A stretch of 64,000 nt of DNA from NCBI GenBank assembly GCA_028865305.1, contig JAGWKM010000001.1:58762-122761 (forward strand). Direction: 5' to 3'. Positions 58,321 to 63,928 of the stretch are shown in pieces. The DNA is from Patescibacteria group bacterium. Lineage in GTDB: Bacteria; Patescibacteriota; Minisyncoccia; UBA6257; 2-01-FULL-56-20. Made by a program: the position numbers and the translations under genes. Below the pieces are notes generated by a model. That model had not been told where the DNA came from and ran no database searches. It saw only the letters and a list, made by a program, of their open reading frames with translations. Positions within the stretch are counted from its first letter, which is position 1, and every line of letters starts with the position of its first letter.

Positions 58321-58737
58321 TTATTTCCGGTTTTTGGTCAATTCGAACGTATTGTGGTTTTTCTCGAAACTTATTCTGAAATTTTCAAAGAAAACTTCCT
58401 GTCCGAGCAATATGCCTACATTTTCGCTATCAATATACCAAGCTGGCACATCAATTTCGATATCGGTATGTTTAATTTTAAAAGGCAAATTGCCGATCTT
58501 CGTCGGAACTTTCCCTTTGCCAATCCCCAAAATTTCTTTAGCATCGTTCAATTTTATTCCTAACGGTTCTGCGTATTCCATATTGACTGCGGTCGTGTCG
58601 GCTCCCGAATCGATGACTGCCGGAACTTCAAGCACACTTCCATCTTGGGTTTTTAATTCAATCATGAGGACGGGTCGTTTAACCGACTTTCCCCTGGTAT
58701 CTTTCGGTCCGACAACTTCGAGGTATGAAAATTTCAT
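58321..58737 (-). CDS. retropepsin-like aspartic protease
   Basis: VPAVIDSGADTTAVNMEYAEPLGIKL. Confidence 0.75.
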   Translation of the reverse strand: MKFSYLEVVGPKDTRGKSVKRPVLMIELKTQDGSVLEVPAVIDSGADTTAVNMEYAEPLGIKLNDAKEILGIGKGKVPTKIGNLPFKIKHTDIEIDVPAWYIDSENVGILLGQEVFFENFRISFEKNHNTFELTKNRK

Positions 58738-58746
58738 TGCTGGATA

Positions 58747-58962
58747 TCAATCGAGGAAAACAGCTCCAGGAGCAAAGCCGAGTTTTGGCAAAACTCTGAA
58801 TACCACCTTTCTCTTTTCATTGGTGGTTTTCCTTAATACTTCAGAGAGAGTGTTACCGCTCGCGATGACCTTTTTATAATCTTGCGACAACGCAGCCCAT
58901 TTATTCAGATATTTTTGGGTAAGTGAAGATGTATCAGGTACCTTGATGATTTTATCGTTCAT
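58747..58962 (-). CDS. small DUF5678-like protein upstream of retropepsin
   Basis: YLNKWAALSQDYKKVIASGNTLSEVLRKT...VFRVLPKLGFAPGAVF. Confidence 0.6.
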   Translation of the reverse strand: MNDKIIKVPDTSSLTQKYLNKWAALSQDYKKVIASGNTLSEVLRKTTNEKRKVVFRVLPKLGFAPGAVFLD

Positions 58963-61291: not shown

Positions 61292-61321
61292 TTGACAAAA
61301 TGATATAAGATGGTGTATAAC
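61292..61321 (+). promoter_or_regulatory. Promoter of the DGR target gene
   Basis: TTGACA-18-TATAAC. Confidence 0.65.
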
Positions 61322-61341
61322 TGATAACAGAAATTTAAGGA

Positions 61342-61392
61342 GGGTCATAGCTTTCAGGACGCAGACAACCTGTGTTTTGAAAGCTATAACCC
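61342..61392 (+). promoter_or_regulatory. 5'-leader hairpin of the DGR target gene
   Basis: GGGTCATAGCTTTCAGGACGCAG / CCTGTGTTTTGAAAGCTATAACCC with G-U pairs. Confidence 0.6.
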
Positions 61393-61434
61393 GCTGCAAA
61401 ATGTTCAAAAGTGGAATAGCAGAAAGGAGTTGCC

Positions 61435-62085
61435 ATGAGCAACCCATCATTCGATCAAGCGTACCAACTTCTCTCCGTGACCCGCGAGGCGGGCATCTCG
61501 CTCGAGGGCCTGCAAGCCCTCTATAAAACAGGACTTCTCTCGGATCTTTTGAAAGCCGAAACTCCGGCAAAGGTTGACCGCGAGGCATTCCGCAAGATCC
61601 TCGGCTACGATCGGTCCAGCTTCCTTGTGAAGATGAATGGCACCGAAGATACCGACGCGATCATCGCGGCGCTGAAGGCCGAGGGCGGCTGGAACTACTT
61701 CAATGAGTGGATCAACCAAGAGAACTTTCCGCTCGAAGTCGGCGGGTCCGATGAGACTGACGAGATCGTGATCCACGATCCCGGCACGAGCTTCACTGAA
61801 GAAGGAGGTCTTGCAATTCTGAAGGGCGAAGGCCTGCTTCGCCCGACGTACAAGCACGCGCTCCGGTTCGTCCGCCAGCACGGGAAGGCGACGACTTCTA
61901 CTAAGAAGCCGTTCGTGATTTTCCTTCACAAGCCCTGGCGGGATCCGCGCCGCTTCCCGCGCGTGCTGTGCGTGGTCCGCCGCCCCGGGGACCGCGAGCT
62001 CTACCTGCTTTGCTCCGAGGGCAGGTTCTACGACTATTGCGTGCTGGCCGGCGTCCGGCCGCGCAAGCAGCCCTCGGTCGCTTAG
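61435..62085 (+). CDS. DGR target (variable) protein
   Basis: C-terminal RFPRVLCVVRRPGDRELYLLCSEGRFYDYCVLAGVRPR encoded by the VR; AGGAG SD. Confidence 0.88.
   Translation: MSNPSFDQAYQLLSVTREAGISLEGLQALYKTGLLSDLLKAETPAKVDREAFRKILGYDRSSFLVKMNGTEDTDAIIAALKAEGGWNYFNEWINQENFPLEVGGSDETDEIVIHDPGTSFTEEGGLAILKGEGLLRPTYKHALRFVRQHGKATTSTKKPFVIFLHKPWRDPRRFPRVLCVVRRPGDRELYLLCSEGRFYDYCVLAGVRPRKQPSVA
61936..62066 (+). repeat. DGR variable repeat (VR)
   Basis: 131 nt; differs from TR only where TR has A. Confidence 0.93.
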
Positions 62086-62117
62086 GCCATCAGCTCTTTC
62101 GGACGCTTTGTCCCTTT

Positions 62118-62145
62118 GCCCCGTTCGGTCTTAACCGAACGGGGT
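62118..62145 (+). terminator. Terminator after the target gene
   Basis: CCCCGTTCGGtcttaaCCGAACGGGGTTTCT. Confidence 0.8.
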
Positions 62146-62401
62146 TTCTGTTTGGTAGAATGAAAGTGGTAGTAGACTGCATCATGCTTGTGACTACGGT
62201 TACAAGCGGTCGAAACCGGCATCGCGAAAGTCCGGCCATGGAACCGGGTACGCCTTGTTCCAGAGTGACTTTCGATGTTTTCTTGAAATCGAGGATGCTT
62301 GGTGCGGAAAACTGGAGGATTAGAATTTTCGAGATCCCAAATACGATACAGCCCCAAGAAAAAAATCAAAGGGCAGTGGTGCAGATGGTTTTCCGCACGA
62401 T

Positions 62402-62532
62402 TGGCAGGATCCGAACCGCAACCCGCGCGTGCTGTACGTGAACCGCAACCCCGAGAACCGCAAGCTCAACCTGAATTACTCCGAGAACAGGTTCAACGAC
62501 AATTGCGTGCTGGCCGGCGTCCGGCCGCGCAA
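62402..62532 (+). repeat. DGR template repeat (TR)
   Basis: 131 nt; Asn-codon rich (AAC/AAT); ends with GTGCTGGCCGGCGTCCGGCCGCGCAA identical to VR. Confidence 0.93.
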
Positions 62533-62538
62533 CCCTCT

Positions 62539-62939
62539 TCATTTCTTTTTCGCCGCCCGGAGATCCTCGGGCGGCGAAACCTGTTTGATCCAGCCGCCGA
62601 GCATCCTGCCGATGTCGAACAGTTTTTCTGAAAGTATTATATATTTTCCGTTATCCAAATCCCTAAATTCCCAGAGGATTTGCAGGAAGAATTTCAGAAG
62701 ATCCAATCTCGTTGCGGCTTTTTGGAGGTAGGGTAATTTCTGTTCTTTGGGAAAATAGCTTGCGACGAAAAGAAGTTCGATAAGCTCAATAAACAAACGA
62801 TCAATTTTTTCACCAAGCGTTCGACGGGAACGCTTCGGAATAACCTGCGAAAATTCATGCCAAACCTTGTACGCGGCCACGAGGTGCTGGATGATCGGAA
62901 GCGTGAGGTTGCGGGGGGGGGGGATTCCATGGAATTCAT
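62539..62939 (-). CDS. avd: DGR accessory variability determinant (Avd) four-helix-bundle protein; start frameshifted by an 11-G tract
   Basis: LTLPIIQHLVAAYKVWHEFSQVIPKRSRRTLGEKIDRLFIELIELLFVASYFPKEQKLPYLQKAATRLDLLKFFLQILWEFRDLDNGKYIILSEKLFDIGRMLGGWIKQ. Confidence 0.85.
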
Positions 62940-62944
62940 TTTTT

Positions 62945-63928
62945 ATGAAAAGCCAATTTGCTGGAAATTTTGAATCAGTCGCAAGCGTCGAAAACCTGCT
63001 TGGAGCTTGGCAAGAATTTTTGCCTGGAAAACGGAAAAAGGTGGACGTGCAAGAATTCCAGCTGCACCTGATGGATAATATTTTAGCATTGCATGCGGAT
63101 TTGGTGAACGGCACGTACCGCCATGGCAGTTACCAGCATTTCAAAATATCGGACCCGAAGCCGCGCGATATCCATAAGGCGAGCGTCCGCGACCGACTAT
63201 TGCATCACGCCATTTACCGCCAGCTTTATCCGTTCTTCGACAAAACCTTTATCGCCGATTCCTTTTCCTGCCGGCTTGGCAAGGGCACACATGCGGCGAT
63301 GGATCGGTTCTGCAGGTTCGGATATCAAGTTGGTAAAAACAATACGCGCACCTGCTGGATCCTGAAATGCGACATCCGCAAATTCTTCGCAAGCATCGAC
63401 CATCAAATTCTTTTGGGAATCCTTCGATCATATATTCCCAATGTGAAAATCATGCGCTTACTTCGGGAGATCATTGAAAGTTTCCCTGTCGGTTTGCCGC
63501 TCGGTAATCTTACTTCGCAATTATTCGTGAATATCTATATGAACGAATTCGACCAATTTGCGAAGCACCAATTGAAAGCGAAACAATATGTCCGCTACGC
63601 CGATGACTTTGCTATCCCCTCGAGCAACCGGCAATGGCTCGAGATAATCCTGCCCGAAATCGATGCCTTTCTCCGGAATTCGCTGAAATTGCACCTGCAC
63701 CCCGATAAGGTATCCATCAAAACATTCGCCTCCGGCGAGGATTTCCTCGGCTGGGTCCATTTCCCGGACCACCGCGTTCTGCGGACCAAGACCAAGCGCC
63801 GGATGATGAAAAGGATTATGACGAATCCTAAAGAAGGGACGTTCCAATCGTACCGAGGCCTTTTGAGTCATGGGAGCGCTAAAAAATTGGGAGCATGGAT
63901 TTCTGCATTCGCTGGAATGACGGAATAA
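62945..63928 (+). CDS. DGR-type reverse transcriptase
   Basis: KPRDIHKASVRDRLLHHAIYRQLYP; LKCDIRKFFASIDHQIL; GLPLGNLTSQLFVNIYMNEFDQFAKH; QYVRYADDFAI. Confidence 0.95.
   Translation: MKSQFAGNFESVASVENLLGAWQEFLPGKRKKVDVQEFQLHLMDNILALHADLVNGTYRHGSYQHFKISDPKPRDIHKASVRDRLLHHAIYRQLYPFFDKTFIADSFSCRLGKGTHAAMDRFCRFGYQVGKNNTRTCWILKCDIRKFFASIDHQILLGILRSYIPNVKIMRLLREIIESFPVGLPLGNLTSQLFVNIYMNEFDQFAKHQLKAKQYVRYADDFAIPSSNRQWLEIILPEIDAFLRNSLKLHLHPDKVSIKTFASGEDFLGWVHFPDHRVLRTKTKRRMMKRIMTNPKEGTFQSYRGLLSHGSAKKLGAWISAFAGMTE

Follow-up and report, generated by a model that had tools for sequence, protein, structure and literature searches.

The window that we analysed, a stretch of 64,000 nucleotides of Patescibacteria DNA that extends to the last base of its contig (C379; 122,761 bases), carries a retroelement cassette close to this end. 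On its forward strand, an open reading frame for a target (variable) protein of 216 amino acids (positions 61435-62085) contains a variable repeat (VR; 61936-62066; 131 nt) in its C-terminal part, and a template repeat (TR; 62402-62532; 131 nt) follows on the same strand at an offset of 466 from the VR. The gene for the accessory variability determinant (avd; 62539-62939) is located on the reverse strand, and that for the reverse transcriptase (RT; 62945-63928) is oriented divergently from it on the forward strand. VR and TR differ at 21 of their 131 aligned positions (11 A to G, seven A to T, and three A to C exchanges), and every one of these mismatches falls onto one of the 32 adenines among the 131 bases of the TR. 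The GC-rich, IMH-like 3' end, a stretch of 27 nt (CGTGCTGGCCGGCGTCCGGCCGCGCAA), is identical in VR and TR.

The RT possesses the motifs GNLTSQ and YADD and was assigned through its match to the Pfam family RVT_1, an RT alignment, and its best solved relative, the entry group of 8ub7, which we take to be the RT of the BPP-1 diversity-generating retroelement (DGR). This group scored 160 bits and the nearest group II intron RT (GsI-IIC) 75 bits; the best phage family was PHROG 1423 (351 bits). An earlier note on this DNA had proposed the placement of the RT in a phylogeny as a check, and in an RT tree that included BPP-1, which forms a long branch, the window RT grouped with DGR RTs and not outside of them. 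The Avd reading frame, whose conserved domain spans about 62576-62902, matches the Pfam family bAvd (PF22296; 43 bits, above the cutoff of 40), the PHROG family "Avd protein of DGR" (phrog_3206), and the NCBIfam family DivGenRetAVD (NF033474; 1.8e-19, 70 bits, below the curated cutoff of 80). Since all 21 TR/VR differences are located at TR adenines, the closest solved relative of the RT is the BPP-1 DGR RT, and Avd matches DGR models, the retroelement of the window is a genuine DGR. Both the parts that the earlier note had listed (target gene, VR, TR, Avd-like gene, and RT), all of which are present at coordinates that we confirmed, and its call of the DGR class, which the adenine-only mismatches and the DGR-type RT and Avd matches bear out, were correct.

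The target protein had no match in Pfam. Its structural model is of low confidence (pLDDT 66), and the top Foldseek matches were nearly all C-type lectin domains, with E-values of 0.35 or worse and none of them significant; this fits, but does not prove, a C-type lectin fold, the usual fold of DGR targets. By inspection, a hairpin resembling an intrinsic terminator is found 3' of the target gene on the forward strand (62119-62153; CCCCGTTCGGT-CTTA-ACCGAACGGGG-TTTCTGTTT). A strong hairpin with 23-nt arms (83% complementary) and a 5-nt loop occupies positions 61342-61392, presumably within the 5' leader of the target gene. Elsewhere in the window, the reverse strand carries small genes at 58321-58962, including one for a protein with a VIDSGADTTAVN motif that appears retropepsin-like by inspection; the gene for a DUF5678 protein precedes it on that strand.

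Relatives of this DGR were gathered from 84,980 species genomes, through whole-genome searches at the level of the family, the order, and the class, and from IMG/VR. The window-type DGR occurs in organisms in which DGRs are common, with its type of RT present in 93 of the 383 sampled genomes of the class. Its clade probably corresponds to clade 2 of Roux et al. (2021; PMC8144416), which comprises cellular DGRs found only in Patescibacteria/CPR; both clades are cellular and restricted to Patescibacteria. Neither avd and its orientation nor antisense arrangements or homopolymers are mentioned in the searched portion of that text (PMC8144416). As the earlier note had stated, avd is inverted, its stop codon (62539-62541) lies 6 nt from the TR end, and it converges on the TR. 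The note had regarded this layout as unusual, and this assessment did not survive the comparison of avd orientation in relatives that it had itself suggested: an antisense avd that is divergent from RT is the rule within the RT clade, as it was found in all 171 genome loci and all 12 viral-contig loci in which avd adjoins the RT gene, while avd of other DGRs is situated upstream of RT on the same strand. Avd orientation changed once on the RT tree, and an oddity of one genome is rejected by the clade-wide orientation. The BPP-1 DGR (mtd-avd-TR-brt; AY029185) shares with the window the adenine-only TR/VR differences, a DGR-type RT, Avd, and a VR in the 3'-terminal part of its target gene. In BPP-1, however, a single strand carries the four components mtd, avd, TR, and brt, with avd before the TR, whereas avd of the window is placed antisense between TR and RT; a mutable repeat at the avd start and a structured leader upstream of the TR further distinguish the window DGR from that of BPP-1.

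The Avd frame of the window is open but, as sequenced, devoid of an in-frame start codon. Two ATG codons on the reverse strand (62939 and 62930) are set out of frame through a run of 11 bases (62913-62923; G on the forward strand, C on the avd strand), and translation from them would yield nonsense products of 81 and 78 amino acids, respectively. With 12 bases in this run the same ATGs would give an Avd protein of 130-133 amino acids, and with nine bases one of 129-132 amino acids. Read in this way, the window avd as sequenced is OFF (C11) and a single base away from ON (C12). The earlier note had called the cassette complete, which is true for its parts, but it had overlooked the surprising part, namely that a mutable repeat sets avd out of frame; its interpretation was thus right on the DGR, the inverted avd, and the convergence, and wrong on the unusual layout and the completeness.

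This tract is the only G/C run of at least eight bases in the 64-kb window. Within the 2-Mb genome of the window, G runs of at least nine bases occur in three places, two of which are the starts of both tract-bearing avd genes. The third, a run of 13 G (C242:33538-33550; locus L380), is found beside a tRNA-like TTCGAACCCC stretch and not at avd. More than one strain or species may be represented in the MAG in question (G000; 2.0 Mb, 388 contigs, 8% contamination). This MAG holds three DGRs, on C379, C90 (L252), and C320 (L253), with RTs 51-72% identical to that of the window, and those on C379 and C90 carry poly-C tracts that are both OFF. No strain variant of the window locus was found in its own genome, which contains only the 75%-identical second copy on C90 and the distant third one on C320.

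Across the clade, 191 of the 229 distinct loci possess a simple repeat in the 90-nt zone at the avd start. Poly-C predominates (174 loci with 8-14 bases, as read from MAG consensus sequences that may be off by one base); one poly-G, 12 CT/TC, two GA, one CA, and one CAAC tract make up the remainder, so that units of one, two, or four bases, but never of three, are represented in these 191 loci. The remaining 1.22 Mb of clade loci contain two G/C runs of at least eight bases, and none of 56 DGR loci with a same-strand avd carries a repeat at the avd start. The avd tract resembles the poly-G/C contingency loci of Campylobacter jejuni, Neisseria, and Haemophilus (e.g. PMC4965091), in which an in-frame simple repeat of 8-14 likewise lies close to the start of the gene, has a unit size not divisible by three, and switches the frame between ON and OFF. 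Most of these contingency loci concern surface structures and modification enzymes, whereas avd is part of a hypermutation machine.

The presence of the repeat goes along with the loss of the avd frame: avd is in frame in only 42 of 182 repeat-bearing loci (140 out of frame), compared to 33 of 36 repeat-less ones (three out of frame; p = 5e-15). Nine additional repeat-bearing loci lack a usable ATG, and L208, one of the three out-of-frame repeat-less loci, has a broken C-run. Between ATG and tract, the frame of the ATG itself stays open in 222 of 279 cases and the shifted frames do so in 201 of 558 (p = 6e-34), and the product of OFF loci has a median length of 27 amino acids. Rescue of Avd by a non-ATG start was considered and rejected, as 131 of the 140 OFF loci have no in-frame ATG, GTG, or TTG within 75 nt. 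These data also bear on the proposal that the tract serves as the spacer of a promoter or leader within the 40 nt that separate avd from RT, with its length tuning the transcription of one or both genes and not the frame. The tract does lie between two divergent starts, and phase variation through spacer length is known from other bacteria (nadA; PMC2791445). We nevertheless judge this proposal to be very unlikely, since the openness of the ATG frame up to the tract and the 33 in-frame loci among the 36 repeat-less ones place the tract within the coding part of avd, 179 of 218 loci have their avd ATG inside the coding sequence of RT (a head-to-head overlap that is not found in the window), and a second clade, described below, has its repeat inside RT. 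A side effect of the tract on transcription may still exist.

Among the 16 non-homopolymer tracts, four are ON, 11 are OFF, and one has no ATG; because these tracts show the mix of ON and OFF states as well, homopolymer sequencing error cannot explain it. The contrast between repeat-bearing and repeat-less loci, in conjunction with the non-homopolymer repeats, led us to reject chance or assembly-only frameshifts. The ON share amounts to 19-23% and is below the neutral expectation of one third. Since OFF exceeds two thirds (p = 4e-5, first ATG), these counts suggest that the ON state is usually selected against or short-lived. A purely neutral switch does not predict such a rarity of ON (19-23% versus one third), which counts against the explanation that we favor.

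We assessed the same loci for signs of decay. Values of dN/dS for avd ranged from 0.02 to 0.10 overall and from 0.08 to 0.10 between pairs of OFF loci; L224/L230 and three saturated pairs were left out of this calculation (ungapped offset or saturated dS). Stop codons are missing from 135 of 137 tract-bearing avd domains. Mismatches of the VR affect 1411 of 2576 TR adenines and 34 of 7520 other positions in OFF loci, and the same picture emerges for ON loci (418 of 765 and 9 of 2163, respectively); the TR/VR finder favors adenine-only pairs, and the share of adenine mismatches is therefore partly conditioned on the search. Judged from these sequences, OFF loci have lost neither the purifying selection on avd nor the diversity of the VR. 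That avd is a decaying pseudogene, or that the frameshifts are homopolymer assembly errors, is hardly credible in view of the low dN/dS values, the stop-free domains, the same mix of ON and OFF in dinucleotide tracts, and an in-frame share that lies below one third, where mostly in-frame loci would be expected. Poly-G runs are difficult to sequence, and assembly N gaps or contig ends fall exactly onto the repeat in L318, L324, and L342, with the contig of L385 starting inside its GA tract; such breaks speak for assembly errors, but they are also expected if reads disagree on tract length.

On the phylogenetic tree, neither the length nor the frame of the tract carries a signal (69 changes versus 69.8 when shuffled, and 57 versus 55.4, respectively), whereas the type of tract does (18 versus 41 changes). 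The closest pair of avd loci that differ in their tract, L354 and L355, is about 92% identical, and its sole indel in 720 nt consists of two CT units, which convert ON to OFF. A scan of IMG/VR with the RT of L129 found no strain variant of this locus. As far as the sequences compared here can tell, tract length turns over fast.

The near-identical pair of loci in our dataset comes from a second Patescibacteria DGR clade (L020, L022, L023, L024, L025, L391-L394, L396, L397, L399, L405, and L414), in which it is the RT that is seemingly split into two frames; avd, where found, lies upstream on the same strand. What appears as a split is a (GA)n or poly-G tract that immediately precedes motif A. 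RT is out of frame in 12 of 14 loci with this repeat and in none of six loci without it (p = 0.0007). Over 3,585 bp, L391 and L392 share 99.92% identity and are set apart by one substitution and a G11 (OFF) versus a G9 (ON) tract. The latter difference is a natural length variation in near-identical sequence. Such variation is pertinent to another explanation, constitutive recoding, by which slippage of RNA polymerase at the homopolymer or ribosomal frameshifting would provide some in-frame Avd irrespective of tract length, and the tract would tune the Avd level instead of acting as a genetic switch. Purifying selection on avd and adenine-mutated VRs in OFF loci imply that Avd is made at some time, and homopolymers can promote slippage. 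However, poly-C gives way to di- or tetranucleotide repeats at the avd start of some loci, the RT of the second clade contains (GA)n or poly-G, and near-identical sequences differ in length, so that a length-mutable repeat is the only property common to all; we thus consider constitutive recoding improbable.

The region between the target gene and the TR contains further conserved elements. An extended -10-like element (TGgTAGAAT; 62153-62161, forward strand) precedes the TR RNA, and TANNNT is found at this position in 20 of 20 aligned relatives. It is followed by a structured RNA leader (62168-62398, forward strand); these roughly 230 nt in front of the TR are conserved across relatives, and their structure is supported by covariation. 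A stem of 12 bp (62302-62313/62387-62398) abuts the TR. The leader consensus comprises 48 pairs, 41 of which show compensatory changes, and 95.9% of the leader cells are paired, versus about 40-45% for a slid control. Searches with a covariance model (R1) of the leader's 3' portion retrieved the element from 43 of 51 additional loci of the clade, but neither from any of 47 other DGR loci nor from the searched stretch of the BPP-1 record. Rfam gave no family above threshold in the window and one sub-threshold match (E-value 0.11). Directly 3' of the TR, within the 3' codons of avd, a hairpin is present on the forward strand (62550-62577), whose T-run is missing in the window; a terminator-like hairpin with a T-run follows the TR in 96 of 129 relatives, compared to one for a control region and 1.4 after shuffling. 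An alignment of the TR end plus about 190 nt yielded no consensus pairs that would indicate a BPP-1-like spacer RNA structure 3' of the TR. With a -10 element of its own and, usually, a terminator, the TR RNA appears to be transcribed independently. In L232, the VR-TR region is present as a tandem duplicate (618-nt repeat; about 1316-2414 in RT-forward orientation) with two copies of the RNA leader; the copies differ by 12 adenine mismatches and no others, and avd of L232 is in frame, while L231, which is 89% identical to L232, is OFF.

Taken together, we consider it very likely that the locus represents a working-type DGR whose clade is restricted to Patescibacteria and whose accessory gene contains an on/off switch driven by slippage. 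The structured TR RNA would be copied by RT and Avd into adenine-mutated cDNA, as in BPP-1, and this cDNA would rewrite the VR of the target gene (mutagenic homing). The mutable repeat sits between the avd start codon and the four-helix domain, and replication slippage by a non-multiple of three would lead either to full-length Avd (ON) or to a short nonsense peptide (OFF). OFF cells would presumably make no Avd, and by analogy with BPP-1 this protein should be needed in the window clade; the path that leads from tract length to DGR activity is our inference. Switching of Avd, or of RT in the second clade, would in this way turn mutagenic homing on and off, heritably and reversibly, and may have been selected to limit mutagenesis in time.

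Slippage-driven phase variation and DGRs, the fastest known targeted mutators, are each well known on their own. The literature that we searched contained no paper joining DGRs with slippage phase variation, and a 2025 review on phase variation does not mention DGRs; the antisense avd has possibly been noted earlier in DGR surveys.

On balance, it is likely that Patescibacteria DGRs are under a genetic on/off control for which simple-repeat switches have arisen at least twice (in avd of one clade and, in another, within RT directly before motif A), that hypermutation is confined to a switching minority of cells, and that the main clade also uses a new type of DGR RNA, equipped with a covarying leader 5' of the TR and its own promoter-like element and usually with a terminator located within the antisense avd. 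Together with the inverted avd gene, the structured leader would then represent a second, biochemically tractable type of DGR. If true, a heritable and reversible slippery-repeat switch has been kept across broad candidate bacterial lineages and has apparently evolved twice in different DGR genes; mutation of the mutator itself would be programmed, so that few cells diversify while most keep a working variant.
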